IMG/VR virus record: IMGVR_UViG_3300025168_000523
Span: 1 to 27,333 of that record
Length of the DNA stretch: 27,333 nt
From: a virus
Direction: 5' to 3' (one strand)
Part shown: positions 3,981-19,176 of the stretch, in pieces
How the letters are laid out: each line of letters begins with the position of its first letter
Numbering within the stretch: position 1 is the first letter of the stretch
Notes under the pieces: generated by a model
Told to the model about the DNA's origin: nothing
What the model saw: only the letters and a program-made list of their open reading frames with translations
Database searches by the model: none
Position numbers and translations under genes: made by a program

Positions 3981-4946
3981 ATGGCATTAGCAATAGGATT
4001 AAGCTCAACTAAAGTAGATTTTATAGATCATGCTTATGTCATGCAAAAATCTATATTGTTTGACGGTGTTGATGATTTTGGACGTTTTAATTTAGAGTCT
4101 GTTTCTCCTGCAAACGGAACTATGAAACCAGTAGAAAATGGCTTAACACTTGCTGCTTGGGTTAAACTAACTGATGATGAAAGTGATGGAGCTGGTATAT
4201 ATAATAGTACAGCGACACAAGGTTTGTTTGGGTGTCGTAAAAATGGTGGATTTTCTATATTTTATAGTAATAAGCGTTTTTGTGGCGCTATATCGTTGCA
4301 AGACGGAGATGGAAATACTAAAACTCTTTTACCTCTGTCTACTTTTTCTCATGCTAGATTATTTGCCTCTAATCAACTTGATAAACCTTTATACAAGTCA
4401 GATGGATGGCATTTTGTTGTAATGACATGGGACGGAAACAGAGTAGCTAATCTTTATGTTGATGGTGGTAGAGATTTAGCTGGTACATCAGGCAGTGCAA
4501 TGGGCTCTATGCCTGAAACTACTGACAGTAAAAAAACCGCAGCAGTACCAGGCGGTAATAATCCTACTGGTGACAATAAATGGTTTATTAAATATGGTAA
4601 TGATTCTATTGATGAGATAATAGGCGCTTTAGTATCTTTTAATGCTGCTCTCTCTCCAATTACATTTCCTGATGGGAGCTATTTAGGAGGCTATGCTGGT
4701 GATTTTGCACAGTGGAACAGATGTTTAACATCTGCAGAAGTAACAACACTATACAATAAACACAAACCAATTGACATGACTACTATGCATCCTGACGATA
4801 TAACTGGATATTATAAAACAACTAATACTAGCGGTACAAATATAGAAGCTGTTATTGGTACAGATATAACTTTGGGTCAGGTTTTAGTACCAGTAACAGA
4901 AATTCCTACATTAGATGTAACAACTTTAGGAGGTGGATATGCATAA
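3981..4946 (+). CDS. LamG/concanavalin A-like lectin-fold phage adhesin
   Basis: 321 residues with the landmarks of a Laminin_G_3 (ConA-like jelly-roll) domain over about residues 20-250. These are an early SILFDGVDDF strand, LTLAAWVKL, a central DGWHFVVMTWDG...LYVDGG core and a terminal AGDFAQWNRCLTSAEV segment. Domains of this type bind carbohydrate or act as structural modules in phage fibres and head appendages. There is no signal peptide, which fits a virion protein assembled in the cytoplasm. The C-terminus (VTTLGGGYA) is short and Gly-rich, and its last codons overlap the next gene by 8 nt. A receptor-binding or capsid-surface adhesin is the best inference; the carbohydrate ligand cannot be read from sequence. 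Confidence 0.8.
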   Translation: MALAIGLSSTKVDFIDHAYVMQKSILFDGVDDFGRFNLESVSPANGTMKPVENGLTLAAWVKLTDDESDGAGIYNSTATQGLFGCRKNGGFSIFYSNKRFCGAISLQDGDGNTKTLLPLSTFSHARLFASNQLDKPLYKSDGWHFVVMTWDGNRVANLYVDGGRDLAGTSGSAMGSMPETTDSKKTAAVPGGNNPTGDNKWFIKYGNDSIDEIIGALVSFNAALSPITFPDGSYLGGYAGDFAQWNRCLTSAEVTTLYNKHKPIDMTTMHPDDITGYYKTTNTSGTNIEAVIGTDITLGQVLVPVTEIPTLDVTTLGGGYA

Positions 4947-6078
4947 AATAAATAAAACAAAAATGAAATATAATTTAATTTTAACAATATTTATGTGCTT
5001 ATCTTTTTTTTTAAAAGCACAGGTAAACTATGGAGAATATATAAAGGATATTGATTTAAGAAAAAATCTAAAAAAACATTTAAAATTTTCTACTATTTAC
5101 GGGGCAGTAAATGGGGGCACATCTATATCTGATAATAAAGTTTTTTCTATTACATCAGGTAGTTTAGAAGAAAGAACAATAAAGACACCCTATGATTATT
5201 CTGTCACTATAGGTATTAGAAAAATAGCTAGATTTGGATATGAAAATAAAGCAAAAACATTTTATGATGGGACTGAATCTAATTATACAGATGCGGCTAC
5301 AGTAGGTAAAATAAAAGGCTTTGAATATTTATTTGAAATAGATTATACAAGACAGCAAGGAGTAGATTATATAGATCAACATCATTTTATTAGATATAGT
5401 TCAGATGATGATTGTAACGGACCTTTTTGTATAGATCATTTTGCTGCTAAAGTAGAATATTTAAAAGATGGATTTGCTGATGTAGAATACTTTGAACTAT
5501 CAGAAAGATATAGAATGAAAAAGAATAATAACCTAGCATTTAGCATAGGAGCTGCTCATAGATTAGCAGAACCTTATGGTTATAATCCACTAGAAAAATG
5601 GATCTTGGATAATGGAAATTTACATTACACTTACTTAGCAATACAAGAAGGGTATACTATTGATGTTGCAAATAGTGAGTATAAAGATCCTAGTGGAACT
5701 ATAGTAGCAACTAGTCCAGAAGTTTGGAAAGAGGTAGTAATACCGCAAGTGATTGCAGATTACACAGAAAAGAAAAGACTTGAGCTAAAAAAACAAATAC
5801 AACATTCAATTATAATTGGATTTGATTATTATAAATATAATAAAAATAAATGGCTTCATGCCTGGGGAAATTTATTGCCCTATCATTATGATGACGGTAG
5901 TAAATTTTCATATCATAAATATAATAACGGAGAACAATGGTATGATTATTCAGGAGGAATTATTTATGGAATAAAAATAAACAAACAACTAGGATACTTT
6001 TTAGAAGCGAAGTACAGTAGGTACTGGAATAGAGAGTGGTATGATTTTAAATTTGGCGTAAATTACGTCATATTTTAG
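4939..6078 (+). CDS. Secreted outer-membrane beta-barrel-like protein
   Basis: About 379 residues from the ATG at 4939, which overlaps the LamG gene by 8 nt and has AGGAGG 5 nt upstream. That purine run is also part of Gly codons, so its role is uncertain, and an ATG at 4963 after an A-rich leader is an equally good start. Either start gives a Sec signal peptide: a basic n-region, a hydrophobic core (LILTIFMCLSFFL) and cleavage near KA|Q. The mature part has alternating aromatic strands and ends FKFGVNYVIF, typical of a beta-barrel C-terminal strand with terminal Phe. A CNGPFC pair could form a disulfide. A virion part would not need a Sec signal, so this is probably inserted in the host outer membrane during infection. 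Confidence 0.78.
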   Translation: MHKINKTKMKYNLILTIFMCLSFFLKAQVNYGEYIKDIDLRKNLKKHLKFSTIYGAVNGGTSISDNKVFSITSGSLEERTIKTPYDYSVTIGIRKIARFGYENKAKTFYDGTESNYTDAATVGKIKGFEYLFEIDYTRQQGVDYIDQHHFIRYSSDDDCNGPFCIDHFAAKVEYLKDGFADVEYFELSERYRMKKNNNLAFSIGAAHRLAEPYGYNPLEKWILDNGNLHYTYLAIQEGYTIDVANSEYKDPSGTIVATSPEVWKEVVIPQVIADYTEKKRLELKKQIQHSIIIGFDYYKYNKNKWLHAWGNLLPYHYDDGSKFSYHKYNNGEQWYDYSGGIIYGIKINKQLGYFLEAKYSRYWNREWYDFKFGVNYVIF

Positions 6079-6101: not shown

Positions 6102-6512
6102 ATGAAAAAAATAGTTTTAACAACAATTACAGCTTGCGCATGTTTATTTGCATCAGCACAATTTTCAATAATGTCTTCTGTAAATATACCTGAAGACGGA
6201 GAAGAGTGGAACATGAGCAGTGTAACAGATAATATGGGTGCTGGTTATCAAATAAATGACAACATGATGGCTGGTGTAATGAAAAATGGAGAAAATTATG
6301 ATCTATTTGGAAGATATTATTTTGAAAATATATATGTATCTTTACAGGGACCAACTGAAGAGATGTCCGAAAATATGAAATTAGGAGCTGGATATTCTTA
6401 TAATGTATGGGATAAACTATATATAGAACCAAATTATTCTATGCCAATGAAAGAAAATGAAAATGGCGAAAGAGAAGGAAAATTTGTTTTAGGTGTAGCT
6501 TATAAACTTTAA
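6102..6512 (+). CDS. Small secreted outer-membrane beta-barrel protein
   Basis: 136 residues with a textbook signal peptide (MKKIVLTTITACACLFASAQ, predicted cleavage before or at Gln). The mature domain is about 116 residues, rich in Met, Gly and aromatic residues, with short alternating strands (ENYDLFGRYYF, IYVSLQG, LGAGYSYNVW, KLYIEPNYS). It ends in FVLGVAYKL, an amphipathic closing strand. Size and pattern fit an 8-stranded OmpX/OmpA-like barrel. It is the second consecutive Sec-signal barrel candidate in this late operon, with an A-rich leader (aattttaaaaa) before the ATG. Possible roles are receptor masking, superinfection exclusion or envelope weakening before lysis; none is shown by sequence. 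Confidence 0.78.
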   Translation: MKKIVLTTITACACLFASAQFSIMSSVNIPEDGEEWNMSSVTDNMGAGYQINDNMMAGVMKNGENYDLFGRYYFENIYVSLQGPTEEMSENMKLGAGYSYNVWDKLYIEPNYSMPMKENENGEREGKFVLGVAYKL

Positions 6513-6537: not shown

Positions 6538-6777
6538 ATGGAAAATATATTTAATTTAGTTAGTGGATTTTTTGGTAAAATGACATCATTATTTATAAGT
6601 CTTTTATCTTTTGGTATTATAGCTGAGATTTTATTTGGAGGCCCTGTATTAGGGATGTCAGTTATTGGAAATGTTATGGATATTATTAATGTGTTAGGAA
6701 ATAATGGAGTAGTTGGCTTAATAGCTTTGGTTGTTTTATATGGAATGTTTACTAATGAATGTTGTTCAAAAAAATAA
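6538..6777 (+). CDS. Small two-TM membrane protein, holin candidate
   Basis: 79 residues with two hydrophobic segments, about residues 13-38 (MTSLFISLLSFGIIAEILFG) and 55-70 (GVVGLIALVVLYGMF), ending in a short CCSKK tail. Length and topology fit class II holins or holin-like proteins. From memory, similar small proteins sit near lysis genes in marine phages. It lies between the barrel-type secreted proteins and a hairpin at 6790, and precedes further membrane proteins. The better holin match in this window is the GTA-type protein at 10038, so this one may be an accessory or antiholin. Confidence 0.7.
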   Translation: MENIFNLVSGFFGKMTSLFISLLSFGIIAEILFGGPVLGMSVIGNVMDIINVLGNNGVVGLIALVVLYGMFTNECCSKK

Positions 6778-6842: not shown

Positions 6843-7049
6843 ATGAACATGACAAACCAACAACTACATACAGAACTCATAGAGTTAAAGCAAGATGTTA
6901 GAGAAATTAAAAAACGTCTACTTGATCCTGACGATGGGGTTATTGCTCGTATTAATCTTAATACAGGCTTTAGAAAGACAGCAAGAATTTGGTTAGGTAT
7001 ATTTTTTACATCAATAACAGCTATAATTACTAAAATGTTATTTAGATAA
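6843..7049 (+). CDS. Small membrane-anchored coiled-coil protein (lysis-associated candidate)
   Basis: 68 residues. The N-terminal half is a heptad-like helix (TELIELKQDVREIKKRLLD) and the C-terminus is one membrane helix (IWLGIFFTSITAIITKMLF) with a final Arg. This order resembles XhlA-like haemolysin or holin-accessory proteins of phages. The start could also be the ATG at 6849, two codons in. The stop overlaps the next start by one base (TAATG). The location between holin-like genes suggests a lysis-regulating or envelope-docking role, but there is no specific family evidence. Confidence 0.68.
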   Translation: MNMTNQQLHTELIELKQDVREIKKRLLDPDDGVIARINLNTGFRKTARIWLGIFFTSITAIITKMLFR

Positions 7050-7330
7050 TGACTAAAGAATTAAATGAAGATACGGGATTTAAAATAAGTATTAAAACAC
7101 TTATAGGTATTGGTGCTGCTATGGCAACAGTTATTAGTATGTGGTTTATGCTGCAATCTGACATAGCTGAAGCTAGAGAATTACCAGAACCTCCGCCTCA
7201 AGATGTAACTAGAATGGAGTTTGATATGAAAGATCAGATGATTAGAAATACAATTTTAACTACACAAAAAGATGTAGAAGAAATGAAGAAAACTCTTGAA
7301 AAAATTGAGGATAAACTTTATAATAGATGA
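7049..7330 (+). CDS. Single-TM coiled-coil envelope protein
   Basis: 93 residues. A short basic/acidic N-terminus leads into one membrane helix at about residues 14-36 (LIGIGAAMATVISMWFML). A Pro-rich linker (ELPEPPPQD) and a C-terminal coiled coil (QKDVEEMKKTLEKIEDKL) follow. N-in anchoring with a periplasmic coiled coil is the topology of inner-membrane spanin subunits, although no partner lipoprotein was found and the Pro-rich linker is unusual for them. It overlaps both neighbours (1 nt upstream, 4 nt downstream), so it is translated with the thioredoxin-like protein. An i-spanin-like or holin-accessory role is inferred. Confidence 0.7.
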   Translation: MTKELNEDTGFKISIKTLIGIGAAMATVISMWFMLQSDIAEARELPEPPPQDVTRMEFDMKDQMIRNTILTTQKDVEEMKKTLEKIEDKLYNR

Positions 7331-7689
7331 AAGAGCAAGATTCTACTTGGAGAATTTTTGCTATATATTTAGGTATATTAGCATTGATGTTTCTCGCTGG
7401 AGTGGCCATGGGACAAGTTCAGATAGCAGTATTTAATGCAGGATGGAATGAAGCAAATAATGTAAATTGGGTTGACAAACTAAACGATGTTAATACACTT
7501 TCTTATGTAGATATAAGTAAAGATACAGAGTTGCAAAAAAAACATAAAATAGCAGTAATACCTACTATTATTATATTTAAAGACGGAAATGAAGTTGCTA
7601 GATTTCAAGCTGATCTTAGTTTTAAAATGGTAGCTACAAAAGAAGATGTACAAGAAGAAATAGACAACCAATTAATGAGCGACTTTTAA
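7327..7689 (+). CDS. Membrane-anchored thioredoxin-fold protein lacking the CXXC active site
   Basis: 120 residues. One N-terminal membrane helix at about residues 9-28 (IFAIYLGILALMFLAGVAMG) is followed by a thioredoxin-like domain. The first core strand and turn read VFNAGW (35-40), where redox-active family members have F.A.WC..C; here the cysteines are replaced and the whole protein has none. The cis-proline strand is intact (VIPTIIIFKDG, Pro79). The fold therefore seems retained without redox chemistry, as in thioredoxin-like binding domains. With the N-terminus inside, the domain would face the periplasm. It overlaps the preceding spanin-like gene by 4 nt and is followed after 1 nt by the secreted repeat protein, so it could chaperone or hold that Cys-rich protein. 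That last step is inference. Confidence 0.68.
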   Translation: MKEQDSTWRIFAIYLGILALMFLAGVAMGQVQIAVFNAGWNEANNVNWVDKLNDVNTLSYVDISKDTELQKKHKIAVIPTIIIFKDGNEVARFQADLSFKMVATKEDVQEEIDNQLMSDF

Positions 7690-7690
7690 A

Positions 7691-9559
7691 ATGAAAAAAA
7701 TATTACTATTATTATTATTATTACCAACTATATTGATAGGGCAAAATTGTGTGCCTACAACTATTATTATAAACTTAGATCAATATCAAAATGAAACTTC
7801 TTGGGATGTTAAAGATGCTAATGATAGTGTAGTAGCTAATGGAGATAGTTACTGGACTTATCCTGATTATGCTAATGTTGTAGAAACAAGATGTCTACCT
7901 ACTGGACCTTTAATTTTTACTATATACGATTCTTATGGAGATGGGTTAAATGGAGCACTTTGGGGTGGTTTAGATGGATCTTATTATTTAATACAGTGTA
8001 ATGATACTTTAATTTATGGAACAGACGCTGCTTTTGGTAATGATTCAATACATGTTTTTGTATCTGATGGTTGCCCTCCCGTCTTTGGGTGTATGGATCC
8101 AGCATACGTTCAGTTTAATCCTTTAGCTGATACAGATGATGGCTCATGCATTGATTTAAAAATATTTGGATGTGTAGACTCTACAATGTATAACTACAAT
8201 CCTAACGCTAATACAATGGCTTTAATACCTAACTGCGACTATATACTTACCTTAACAGATTTAGTAGGTGATGGTTGGGTTGGTTCTTCTTTAGAAGTAA
8301 AGCAAGATACTAATGTTTGGTACTTTTCATTAGACACTGCTTTATTTTCAAACGATTATATTATAAATTTACAATCACCTAAGCCAGTTTCATTTAAGTT
8401 TTCAGTTACAAGTCAAGCATCACAAACAGCTGCTCATTGTGGATTTAAATTAACCAATCCTTTAGGTCAAGTTATGATAGAAATTTTACCGCCTTTTATA
8501 AGTCCTTTGTTTAAGCATATAGCACCAACTTATTGTGGTAACTTATGTATTGAAAAAACATTTGGATGTATGGATTCGTTGGCAATTAACTACATAGATA
8601 CTGTAAACACAGATGATGGTAGTTGTTATTACATTCCAGGTTGTACTAACTCATCTTACTTAGAATATTATACGCAAGGATTTATTGCTGACTATAATAA
8701 TGGCTCTTGTCAAACTTCAGCTGTATGGGGATGTACTGACTCAATATCGTTTAACTATGATACTTTAGCTAATATAGATAACGGTGGTTGTATACCTGTT
8801 ATTTTAGGCTGTATGGAGTCTTTAGCTTTTAATTATAATCCACTTGCAAATACACCTGGTGCTTGTATACCTTTAATATATGGATGTACAGATCCAACAA
8901 TGTTTAATTTTGATCAACTAGCAAATACTGAAGATGGTGGTTGTGAGCCTTATGTTTTTGGTTGTACTGACTCAATAATGTTTAATTTTAATCCTTTAGC
9001 AAATGTTGATAATAATTCTTGTATTTCTTATATTTATGGCTGTACTGATCCCTCTATGCTTAATTACAACCCCACAGCCAATACAGAAGATTTTACTTGT
9101 ATTTCTTATGTTTATGGTTGCATGGACAGCACTGCTTACAATTATGATTCGCTGGCTAATACTGACAATGGTTCGTGTGTTATTGTGGTTCAGGGATGTA
9201 TGGACCCAGATGCGTACAATTATAATTCTAGCGCTAATGTTAATGATGAGCACTGTCATTATGACGCAGGCTGTATAACTGGACCAGGTAATCCATATTG
9301 GTTAAACGATCCTTGCTATGCTTGGGTTATATCAGTGGATGATTATTGTTGTGAAAATGAATGGGACACTATATGTCAAGCTACATACAACTATTGTGAA
9401 GGAACTTGGTTTGGTCCTTTATTAAGCAGAACAACAGATAAAAAGAAATTATTAATGACTACAGACTTATTAGGAAGACCTACAAAAGAAAGTAATAATA
9501 AATTGCTTTTTTATATTTATGATAATGGGACTACAGATAAAAAAATAATTATAAAATAA
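7691..9559 (+). CDS. Secreted Cys-rich repeat protein with T9SS-type C-terminal sorting signal
   Basis: 622 residues. Order: a Sec signal peptide (MKKILLLLLLLPTILIGQ, 1-18); a domain at about 25-125 with an IYDSYGDGLNG motif; two Cys-loop units (133-182); a second GDG domain at about 183-285 (LTDLVGDGWVG); and nine more units (292-522). The units follow the pattern GC-[MT]-[DE]...NYxPLANxDxGSC. Then come a Cys-cluster (DYCCENEWDTIC, 551-562) and a tail with DLLGR (592-596), LFYIYDNGT and the terminal KKIIIK. The DxxGR...KK-V/I-x-K ending is the T9SS type-A sorting pattern of Bacteroidetes surface proteins. This predicts Sec export to the periplasm, then T9SS passage and surface attachment or release. 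It overlaps the next gene by one base. Domain logic is strong; the biological purpose is unknown. Confidence 0.88.
   Translation: MKKILLLLLLLPTILIGQNCVPTTIIINLDQYQNETSWDVKDANDSVVANGDSYWTYPDYANVVETRCLPTGPLIFTIYDSYGDGLNGALWGGLDGSYYLIQCNDTLIYGTDAAFGNDSIHVFVSDGCPPVFGCMDPAYVQFNPLADTDDGSCIDLKIFGCVDSTMYNYNPNANTMALIPNCDYILTLTDLVGDGWVGSSLEVKQDTNVWYFSLDTALFSNDYIINLQSPKPVSFKFSVTSQASQTAAHCGFKLTNPLGQVMIEILPPFISPLFKHIAPTYCGNLCIEKTFGCMDSLAINYIDTVNTDDGSCYYIPGCTNSSYLEYYTQGFIADYNNGSCQTSAVWGCTDSISFNYDTLANIDNGGCIPVILGCMESLAFNYNPLANTPGACIPLIYGCTDPTMFNFDQLANTEDGGCEPYVFGCTDSIMFNFNPLANVDNNSCISYIYGCTDPSMLNYNPTANTEDFTCISYVYGCMDSTAYNYDSLANTDNGSCVIVVQGCMDPDAYNYNSSANVNDEHCHYDAGCITGPGNPYWLNDPCYAWVISVDDYCCENEWDTICQATYNYCEGTWFGPLLSRTTDKKKLLMTTDLLGRPTKESNNKLLFYIYDNGTTDKKIIIK
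8087..9256 (+). repeat. Coding repeat array, 11 Cys-loop units (26-aa period in the 3' half)
   Basis: Units begin at residues 133, 160, 292, 317, 347, 373, 398, 424, 450, 476 and 502 of the secreted protein. Consensus start GC[MT]D and end D-x-GSC. The last five are spaced exactly 26 residues (78 nt) apart; earlier ones vary, and a separate GDG domain interrupts after the second. Each unit has one Cys at each end, suited to a disulfide-closed loop. Asp, Asn and Gly in the second half of each unit could bind Ca2+. Confidence 0.85.
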
Positions 9560-9772: not shown

Positions 9773-10027
9773 ATGTCTATATTAACTACAATAGTCGGTA
9801 TTCCTTTATATTCTACACAAGCAGAAGCATTAGCTTGGGCTTCATCAAGAGGACTATCGGGATTTCATACTCATATGTTTGCAGGTCAAACTGGATATAT
9901 GGGTGGGATAGATCATAATCAAGCTATGATTAATAATTCTAATATAATAACAGAACAAAACACACCAGAAGAAACTATTAACACAAGTACACTTCCCTCT
10001 ACTTCAACAGGAGGGGGTGGCTATTAA
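9773..10027 (+). CDS. Short conserved-looking virion or host-interaction protein (84 aa)
   Basis: The frame is open from a TTG at 9758, but the ATG at 9773 lies 1 nt after the previous stop and is preferred. The product is soluble, with a distinctive RGLSGFHTHMFAGQTGYMGG core and a disordered Thr/Ser tail ending STGGGGY. From memory, a 'GLSGFHTH...Q..YM.G..H' core recurs in short proteins of marine phages with unassigned function. The His-rich core could bind a metal. The ending resembles the Gly-rich tail of the LamG protein, hinting at a shared virion attachment, but that is weak. Confidence 0.7.
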   Translation: MSILTTIVGIPLYSTQAEALAWASSRGLSGFHTHMFAGQTGYMGGIDHNQAMINNSNIITEQNTPEETINTSTLPSTSTGGGGY

Positions 10028-10037
10028 AATAAAAGAA

Positions 10038-10430
10038 ATGAGTATATTAACAAACATATTTTCTAGTGGAGCCGCAGAACTTGTTAAAGGTGTTGGTGGA
10101 GTTATAGATAATTTACACACATCAGGTGAGGAAAAATTAGAAGCAGAAAGAAAAATAAAAGAATTAGTTGCTAACTATGAAATAGAGATGGAAAAAAATA
10201 TTACATCTCGTTGGGAAGCAGATTTAAAATCAGATTCATGGCTTAGTAAAAACGTTAGACCATTAGTTTTAATATTTTTAATAGTATGCACCATGTTATT
10301 AATATTTATAGATGCAGGCGCATTAAGTTTTGAAGTTAAGTCTACTTGGGTGGATTTATTACAATTAGTATTAATAACTGTAATTGGAGCTTATTTTGGA
10401 GGGAGATCTTTAGAAAAAGTTAAAAAGTGA
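10038..10430 (+). CDS. Holin, GTA/3TM family (PF11351-like)
   Basis: 130 residues from the ATG at 10038 (a GTG at 10017 in the same frame would run into the previous gene). An N-terminal amphipathic/charged half (EEKLEAERKIKELVANYEIE) leads to the signature DSWLSKNVRPLVLIFLIV. Membrane helices lie at about 76-95 and 104-122, with a basic C-terminus (GGRSLEKVKK). The 'W..k..RP......' turn before the first helix is the hallmark of the 'holin of 3TMs, for gene-transfer release' family. It would form membrane lesions that release the endolysin at the end of infection. It is the strongest lysis assignment in the window. Confidence 0.82.
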   Translation: MSILTNIFSSGAAELVKGVGGVIDNLHTSGEEKLEAERKIKELVANYEIEMEKNITSRWEADLKSDSWLSKNVRPLVLIFLIVCTMLLIFIDAGALSFEVKSTWVDLLQLVLITVIGAYFGGRSLEKVKK

Positions 10431-11582: not shown

Positions 11583-12059
11583 ATGAAACTTAAAGTATTA
11601 AGATTTAGTAGCCAGGAGGATAGTACTTCTGGCTTACTTTTTTTAGAGAGTAATCTAGGACTAGAATTTCTATGTTATACACTAGAAGATGAGAAAAGAT
11701 CTTTAAAGGTTAGAGGAGAAACTAGAGTTCCTTCTGGTACTTATAAAATTGAATTAAGAACTGAAGGTGGATTTCATAATAAATACAAAAAGAAACATGG
11801 TGGATTTCATAAAGGAATGCTACACATTACTAATGTCCCGAATTTTGAATATATCCTTATACATACTGGCAACACTGATGAGCATTCTGCTGGATGTTTA
11901 CTTGTGGGTGATTCGCAGGAGAATAACATTATCATCAAAGACGGCTTCATTGGCAAGTCAACTAATGCGTACAAGAGAATATATCCAGATATTGCTAAAG
12001 AAATAATAAAGGGAAAAAATGTAACTATTCAATACATAGATTTAGATAAAAATGATTAA
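11583..12059 (+). CDS. DUF5675-family protein with YkuD-like His/Cys signature
   Basis: 158 residues matching the layout of DUF5675 phage proteins: a two-strand start (LKVLRFSSQEDSTSGLLF), a LEDEKR turn, a VPSGTYKIELR strand and the signature ILIHTGNTDEHSAGC. His94 and Cys105, in an IHxGN...SxGC arrangement, resemble the catalytic His/Cys of YkuD L,D-transpeptidases. A cysteine peptidase or transpeptidase acting on peptidoglycan is therefore plausible. No other endolysin is visible in the window, and a holin gene lies about 1.1 kb upstream, so this could be the cell-wall enzyme of the lysis system. The family assignment is fairly confident; the activity is inferred. Confidence 0.7.
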   Translation: MKLKVLRFSSQEDSTSGLLFLESNLGLEFLCYTLEDEKRSLKVRGETRVPSGTYKIELRTEGGFHNKYKKKHGGFHKGMLHITNVPNFEYILIHTGNTDEHSAGCLLVGDSQENNIIIKDGFIGKSTNAYKRIYPDIAKEIIKGKNVTIQYIDLDKND

Positions 12060-17498: not shown

Positions 17499-17759
17499 CT
17501 ATTTATTTATTTTAGCAATTATACTTGATTCAGGAAACATAAGATATTCTTCATTTTTATACTCCATACGCATTGCGTGTCTTGGCTCGTATATAACATA
17601 ATCTCCCTCTATTAATTCTTGTACTTTACTACCAGTAGAAATTACAATACCCTTAGTAGGTATTTCTGCTTCTGCTTTAGAAATTATTATTCCTGAATCT
17701 GTAGTTTCTTTAATTTTATCAGGCTCTATTAAAACCTTGTTCCCTATCATTTGCATCAT
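17499..17759 (-). CDS. GroES-like co-chaperonin
   Basis: Up to 86 residues, starting at one of three close methionines (MMQM). The GroES layout is clear: GNKVLIEPDKIKETTDSGII with a mobile loop containing GIII (E. coli GIVL), then GIVIST, then GDYVIYEPRHAMRMEYKNEE and the closing SSIIAKI strand. Compared with E. coli GroES, the roof beta-hairpin between 'AVG' and 'VGD' is missing: only SKVQELIE separates them. Lack of the roof hairpin is also described for T4 Gp31, which enlarges the cage for the capsid protein. The product would cap host GroEL and help fold virion proteins. It overlaps the upstream gene by 4 nt. Confidence 0.85.
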   Translation of the reverse strand: MMQMIGNKVLIEPDKIKETTDSGIIISKAEAEIPTKGIVISTGSKVQELIEGDYVIYEPRHAMRMEYKNEEYLMFPESSIIAKINK

Positions 17760-18318: not shown

Positions 18319-19176
18319 TTAAAATATGTATCTAATTTTATTCCAGGGTATTACCTTATTGTGTAATTCTTTAAATTGATTTATATAATCACGTTTTAGC
18401 TTGTAATTATACCTAATATTTTCACAACCGTATTGTGATATTTTAGTTTCTTGTATGTTAGGAATCCATAAATCTATTTCTGTTTTTGGATTGTTTTTAA
18501 GGTTTAAAGTATGTCTTTCTATATTGTGTGTAAGAAATATGCATTCTGACAAAACATTTTCTTTAATTTCTATATATTTATCCATTAATCTAAACAATTC
18601 AAAATAATCATTTAGCCATCCATCGTATACTATTATAGGACTAAAGTTTACGTGTACATCATAACCAGCAAATGTAAAAGCGTCAATAGCTAATATTCTA
18701 TCTATAATTTTAGATGTTCCTGGCTCATGTAAATCAGCCTTACTCTGTGGCATCAAACTAAATCTAATACGTATTTTACCTTCAGGATTAAATTCTAACA
18801 AGTTTTTGTTTACATATTTTGTAGCAAAACTTCCCATAATATCTGGGTGATCTTTAAAGAATCTAAATATTTTTTTCCATTCATGATGTTTAGCGTGTAA
18901 TGCAAAATCTTCATTGCAGCTTATATCATATGTAATATATTTTTCATGCGTTTGATTGGGCTTATCTACTTGAGCAAAAGCAGCATGACTATTTATTTCA
19001 GTAAGTATATCTTCTGTATTTGTTGCAACAGATAGACCGTAAGGCATATGGCGTTTCATATAACAGTAAGAACAGCTATACAAACAACCATAGCCAAAGC
19101 TTGGAGATATAAAATCTGTAGATCTACCAGATGGTCTAATTTTAAATGTTTTTCTTTTTATTTTCTTTACTTTCAT
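18319..19176 (-). CDS. Radical SAM protein, spore photoproduct lyase (SplB)-like
   Basis: 285 residues. The radical SAM cluster motif is GCLYSCSYCYMKRH, with CxxxCxxC cysteines at 31, 35 and 38. The surrounding pattern (SPSFGYGC..., LSVATNTEDIL, YDISCNEDFALH) is that of the spore-photoproduct-lyase branch. The enzyme would use a [4Fe-4S] cluster and SAM to make a 5'-deoxyadenosyl radical. Family members reverse the thymine dimer 5-thyminyl-5,6-dihydrothymine in spore DNA, but Bacteroidetes do not sporulate, so the phage version may repair UV damage or have another substrate. It overlaps the DUF3310 gene upstream by 35 nt. Confidence 0.8.
   Translation of the reverse strand: MKVKKIKRKTFKIRPSGRSTDFISPSFGYGCLYSCSYCYMKRHMPYGLSVATNTEDILTEINSHAAFAQVDKPNQTHEKYITYDISCNEDFALHAKHHEWKKIFRFFKDHPDIMGSFATKYVNKNLLEFNPEGKIRIRFSLMPQSKADLHEPGTSKIIDRILAIDAFTFAGYDVHVNFSPIIVYDGWLNDYFELFRLMDKYIEIKENVLSECIFLTHNIERHTLNLKNNPKTEIDLWIPNIQETKISQYGCENIRYNYKLKRDYINQFKELHNKVIPWNKIRYIF

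Follow-up and report, generated by a model that had tools for sequence, protein, structure and literature searches.

Why should a phage encode a protein that enters the Sec pathway at one end and, at the other, resembles a cargo of the Bacteroidota-specific type IX secretion system (T9SS), and is such a protein exported by the host? The question is raised by a gene at 7691-9559 of the window, which is an entire IMG/VR record of 27,333 bases and probably a fragment of a genome. An initial annotation of this DNA had proposed that the gene encodes a cargo with a type-A sorting domain, placed on the cell surface by the T9SS of the host. The open reading frame is uninterrupted, begins with ATG and encodes 622 aa. 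It starts 1 nt past the preceding gene and shares 1 nt with the one that follows, as in a tight operon, which by its gene position would be a late one. The cargo gene and its parts are as follows:

7691..9559, plus strand: T9SS-cargo-like gene, 622 aa, with signal peptide, two GDG beta-sandwich domains, 11 Cys loops, Cys cap and short sorting tail (sequence, alignment, model)
7691..7744, plus strand: Sec signal peptide, residues 1-18 (sequence, hydropathy rule)
7748..8074, plus strand: first GDG domain, residues 20-128, predicted beta-sandwich (alignment, model)
8087..9256, plus strand: 11 Cys-loop repeats, residues 133-522, split by the second GDG domain (sequence, alignment)
8231..8536, plus strand: second GDG domain, residues 181-282 (alignment)
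9272..9397, plus strand: Cys cap, residues 528-569, with an invariant CC...W...C core (sequence, family alignment)
9440..9556, plus strand: short T9SS-type sorting tail, residues 584-622, with three predicted strands (host-tail model, AlphaFold model)

The architecture that had been read from this gene is all present in the open reading frame: two GDG domains, 11 Cys loops, a cysteine cluster, and an end with DLLGR and KKIIIK. The Sec signal is likewise borne out, both by its sequence and by the hydropathy rule used to call signal peptides throughout; MKKILLLLLLLPTILIGQ has KK in its n-region, the core LLLLLLLPTILI, and a cleavage site before Q, as is usual in Bacteroidota. Residues 83-85 and 193-195 form the GDG motifs; in the family alignment the first is invariant, and the second is flanked by an invariant D190 and W196. 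The first GDG domain gives weak, C2/PLAT-like fold matches (best Z 7.0), and a PDB fold search with the cargo model returned weak beta-sandwich matches and nothing stronger. The Cys loops are 11 units of GC(M/T/V)(D/E/N)...C; a regular expression gives a count of 12, the extra one being the beginning of the Cys cap. The protein ends in KKLLMTTDLLGRPTKESNNKLLFYIYDNGTTDKKIIIK, with the pattern DLLGR...KKIIIK. Searches of the full cargo protein against Pfam, NCBIfam (E up to 10), PHROGs and PDB sequences, and an Rfam scan of the window, gave no match. The gene is under purifying selection in its relatives, with dN/dS of 0.05-0.15 in six of seven pairs and 0.35 in the seventh. A cyanophage protein that carries the annotation virion structural has the Cys-loop repeat too, with neither signal nor tail; the repeats alone therefore say nothing about export, and on this case they were rejected as proof of it.

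Direct tests of the tail with the standard sorting-domain models, as proposed in the initial annotation, were negative. The NCBIfam search gave no match to TIGR04131 (type B), neither TIGR04183 nor PF18962 matched the cargo protein over its curated cut-off, and TIGR04183 had no match elsewhere on the window record. The type-A claim thus stands in part: the tail is of T9SS type, but at about 39 aa it is short and lacks the full type-A form of about 72 aa. The case for the T9SS rests instead on relatives of the cargo and on host proteins. A profile built from 42 phage short tails was searched against 148 genomes from the order of a Flavobacteriales metagenome-assembled genome (MAG), and found the short tail in 57 of them, in up to 50 proteins per genome. 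SprA is encoded by 56 of these 57 genomes, versus 124 of the 148 overall, and a signal peptide precedes the tail in 10 of the 12 host proteins whose N-terminus is visible. Among 142 genomes from the class of a Maricaulis MAG (Alphaproteobacteria), none has the short tail. A second model was then made of 20 host tails with no phage rows, and against it the window tail scores 62.5 bits (E 3.9e-18, E-values of these profile searches being relative to small databases), with the match reaching the C-terminus. The best of 1000 shuffles reaches 10.6 bits, so the resemblance is not due to chance. Because the host tails were found with a phage profile, the phage and host sets are not wholly independent, though the window match itself needs no phage rows. 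In the AlphaFold model of the cargo, the tail has strands at residues 587-591, 605-610 and 615-619.

The short tail is common in small-genome Flavobacteriales (host loci L178-L197; genomes G028-G174). One such host tail, on contig C74 of G028, is missing from the TIGR04183 matches of the same genome. The T9SS secretomes of these bacteria may therefore be undercounted, since the usual model misses the short tail in the cases checked.

A scan of IMG/VR viral contigs found at least 75 loci with relatives of the cargo, at 32-77% identity. In 60 distinct full-length cargos, the window included, the tail is short in 41 and of the full type-A kind in 19, and both kinds come after the same Cys cap. 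All but one of the 60 have a signal peptide by the hydropathy rule; the exception is L073, whose predicted start may be wrong. TIGR04183 is passed by all six full-tail relatives scanned with it (L016, L054, L052, L066, L074 and L056; 29-47 bits, cut-off 23), and PF18962 by five of seven, with L073 and L074 below the cut-off. On a quick tree of the linked barrels described below, tail type changes 10 times, and at least 6 times when starred branches alone are counted. Repeated switching of this sort within one family would be difficult to account for if the two tails had different functions, and the short and full tails look interchangeable. The N-terminal part of the cargo is variable and in some relatives includes a MAM domain.

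The cargo is part of a conserved module of four genes, not a single gene; its partner genes did not figure in the initial annotation. These partners, and one small gene lying among them, are as follows:

4939..6078, plus strand: first partner, a signal peptide and a predicted outer-membrane beta-barrel of about 12 strands, ending in ...FKFGVNYVIF (alignment, AF2 model, fold search)
6102..6512, plus strand: small signal-peptide protein, probable outer-membrane barrel, found in 24 of the 75 loci
7049..7330, plus strand: second partner, 93 aa, one N-terminal transmembrane (TM) segment followed by a coiled coil (by eye)
7327..7689, plus strand: third partner, 120 aa, N-terminal TM segment or signal, thioredoxin fold without CXXC (WNEAN), conserved tail QADLSFKMVATKEDVQEEIDNQLMSDF (PF00085, alignment)

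All four module genes occur together at 59 of the 75 loci. Of the 16 incomplete modules, 14 are truncated by a contig end less than 2 kb from the cargo. The barrel of L004 was placed in L142, on the same contig, and at L059 the partners are absent from 3.1 kb of upstream sequence. When the barrel was used as the query instead, at least 595 relatives were found, of which 80 viral loci were kept; the cargo is present at every one of these with full flanks, and its complete copies carry the tail in all but L171. That gene (L171:1802-3829), which stops inside the Cys cap, is alone among the cargo genes that look complete in having no tail. Most counterparts of the small gene at 6102-6512 are encoded on the other strand and well away from the module; in related phages this gene and one for a small membrane protein (6538-6777 in the window) are found together on that strand, at a distance of several kb from the module genes.

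The product of 4939-6078 has the signal peptide, barrel fold and C-terminal F of outer-membrane barrels, and its AF2 model (pLDDT 75) matches the autotransporter, Tsx and NanC outer-membrane barrels with Z of 13-15. It is the most conserved piece of the module, with a mean column identity of 67% versus 33% for the cargo. The identities of barrel and cargo do not run parallel between phages: L006 and L035 share 94% in the barrel and 65% in the cargo, while L012 and L013 share 80% and 91%, respectively. This points to exchange of the exposed part. A conserved barrel joined to a variable, exchanged outer part is as would be expected of an exposed module. The third partner matches PF00085 just over the cut-off, with the WCGPC site changed to WNEAN, and none of the 34 aligned relatives has the active-site cysteines; a redox-active thioredoxin was rejected because the CXXC site is absent. 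The C-terminal tail of this protein is very conserved, and its gene always accompanies the cargo.

The arrangement resembles the SprB/SprF-type operons, in which a barrel encoded beside the cargo is needed for cargo secretion (PMC12618676). Like SprF/PorP with a type B cargo and PorE, the phage module sets a cargo gene beside a dedicated barrel gene and a periplasm-side protein (PMC12618676). It differs in that its tail is not type B and its barrel has no detectable homology to SprF/PorP (no match to TIGR03519 in NCBIfam; hhalign probability of 5% to host PorP proteins), and assignment of the barrel to PorP/SprF was rejected on this ground. The phage genes may thus function in the manner of such a pair although they do not form one. 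The PDB fold matches listed for the barrel contain no T9SS shuttle, which excludes nothing.

Complete related records have terminase, portal and head genes. The lack of a PHROG 2 terminase in 28 records suggested a non-tailed virus, which was ruled out by a phrog_6681 terminase and a phrog_6547 portal. The terminase has relatives at 33-46% in phages of Flavobacterium, Cellulophaga, Maribacter and Tenacibaculum, and one at 63% in a podovirus genome from Manatee Spring. One relative is located in a Flavobacteriales MAG with 42 type-A C-terminal domains (CTDs). The other three of the four genome matches fall in alphaproteobacterial or archaeal bins (L091 and L092 in a Maricaulis MAG, L090 in a Nitrosopelagicus MAG), so the MAG link could itself reflect mis-binning; L090, L091 and L092 are pieces of the phage group in unrelated public MAGs, probably mis-binned. 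From these data we infer a podovirus-like phage of marine Flavobacteriales. No barrel match was found in any phage record searched for cultured relatives; the tail, barrel and thioredoxin-fold models had no match in 42-50 kb of each related cultured-phage genome, and TIGR04183 had none in six related phage records examined whole. As the cultured relatives are without the module genes, the module belongs to the uncultured side of the phage group.

A Sec signal, a T9SS-type tail and a probable host lineage with the T9SS together make surface export by the host T9SS the best reading of this phage-encoded protein. The earlier proposal of such export is supported by these features, and what weighs against it is the negative outcome with the standard models. 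On the evidence of sequence we put the probability that the cargo would be exported by the host T9SS at roughly 0.8. Upon synthesis, the cargo would pass through Sec and then be oxidized in the periplasm. The SprA/PorV machinery of the host would recognize the tail and move the cargo through the outer membrane, where the host attachment system, the phage barrel, or both could keep it on the surface. The barrel would be an anchor or a shuttle for the cargo, and the two small partner proteins could connect it to the periplasm and inner membrane. Since the cargo and its three envelope partners are kept in many related phages, these phages probably re-dress the infected cell by way of the host export machine.

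An exported protein need not serve infection. The cargo could be a moron, that is, a captured host secreted protein that leaves by the T9SS and benefits the host through adhesion or particle attachment. Flavobacteriales hosts are indeed rich in Cys-loop proteins, which occur in 63 of the 148 genomes, and have the same short tail. In this genome sample, however, the Cys cap occurs only on a phage contig, and no close full-length bacterial homologue was found outside phage contigs. A moron would also hardly be conserved with three partners in nearly every phage of so large a group, and the late-operon position, with no integrase recognized in the window, is ill-suited to a lysogenic trait. We consider this origin unlikely.

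T9SS export could also be set beside lysis, in that the barrel, coiled coil and thioredoxin-fold protein might act as an outer-membrane spanin-like set, with the cargo binding the surface. Two genes near the module give some reason to consider this:

10017..10430, plus strand: 3-TM holin-like protein (weak PF11351 match, below cut-off)
11583..12059, plus strand: DUF5675 (PF18925)

The 93-aa partner is moreover laid out like an inner-membrane spanin, with an N-terminal TM segment and a periplasmic coiled coil (by eye). However, no spanin family matches, it is hard to see what the large variable exposed half of the cargo would do in a fusion device, and no lysis protein is known to need T9SS export. 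A role in lysis is therefore doubtful, if still to be reckoned with.

The C-terminus might instead be some other outer-membrane sorting tag, common to small marine Flavobacteriales and distinct from a T9SS signal. The standard models miss the tail, and when short and full tails are compared profile to profile, the link is very weak (probability 2%). On the other hand, within the same protein the tail has changed places several times with genuine TIGR04183 domains, it tracks SprA genomes, and its length and predicted fold match the proven short CTD of Prevotella intermedia. In that species, CTDs of 40-55 residues are predicted to form one three-stranded sheet, and are cleaved and glycosylated like the long ones (PMC11969387). 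As in the window tail of about 39 aa, which fits the short CTD as described in the text of that report, there are a glycine loop (here DLLGR), three predicted strands, two of them C-terminal, and a basic end, on proteins exported by Sec (PMC11969387). The P. intermedia examples are bacterial proteins, and the authors name that species as the only one reported with both kinds of CTD; here the short tail extends to many Flavobacteriales and their phages (PMC11969387). For GFP to be secreted in P. gingivalis, the final 22 residues are enough (PMC5445135). A different tag is thus improbable. Least probable of all is a virion fibre or decoration protein whose N-terminal hydrophobic stretch is no signal peptide: the gene does lie among virion genes and shares its Cys-loop repeats with the cyanophage protein annotated as virion structural, but signal and sorting tail occur in all complete relatives, the tail being of two kinds in one position, and the disulfide-rich make-up is unsuited to the cytoplasm.

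If the cargo is exported by the host T9SS, its purpose might be to re-dress the cell and thereby stop phage from binding to the receptors of that cell, leading to superinfection exclusion or to protection of released virions. We offer this purpose tentatively, by analogy to T5 Llp, a phage-encoded protein that masks a receptor. Each would be a phage protein located in the outer membrane of an infected cell or on its surface; maskers of the Llp type differ from a T9SS cargo in being small lipoproteins or porins. The initial annotation likewise named a block on superinfection as a possible purpose, next to clumping of infected cells or the passing of released virions to a surface adhesin. A fuller scheme, in which a lineage-wide module rebuilds the surface, the phage barrel receiving or anchoring a T9SS-exported protein with the aid of periplasmic helpers for receptor masking or superinfection exclusion, is conceivable but on the whole unlikely.

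T9SS cargos are already known in phages from two earlier reports. Cryophage, from cryoconite, has three T9SS type-A cargo genes (endoglucanase, GH39 and PA14) in variable islands (PMC7468147). Its authors propose cargo secretion, with superinfection exclusion or strain competition, and call the occurrence unique (PMC7468147). Cryophage thus shares with the present phages genes with T9SS sorting domains, of type A in its case; conserved partner genes are not mentioned in the passages on these cargos, unlike the four-gene module described here (PMC7468147). A gut crAss-like phage cluster likewise encodes T9SS sorting-domain proteins, near head genes and BACON-linked, whose function or module was not examined there (PMC6949934). 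The four-gene envelope module is new here; no report of a conserved phage T9SS-cargo module was found in the open-access literature, subscription journals and preprints being outside the scope of the search. If the export reading is true, a large marine phage group relies on the T9SS, or takes advantage of it, to put a protein onto the cell that it infects, and does so through a near-constant four-gene module instead of an occasional accessory gene. It would also provide a testable link among phage infection, the T9SS and cell-surface identity in marine bacteria.

Several further genes of the phage group were observed. L077:1746-11396 encodes a giant phage protein of 3216 aa adjoining the module, and the window gene at 255-2762 looks like its counterpart by position. 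The window encodes a phage GroES (Cpn10) at 17499-17759; related cultured phages also have GroES, and some GroEL as well. The product of 18319-19176 resembles spore photoproduct lyase (PF20903, radical SAM, E 2e-26).
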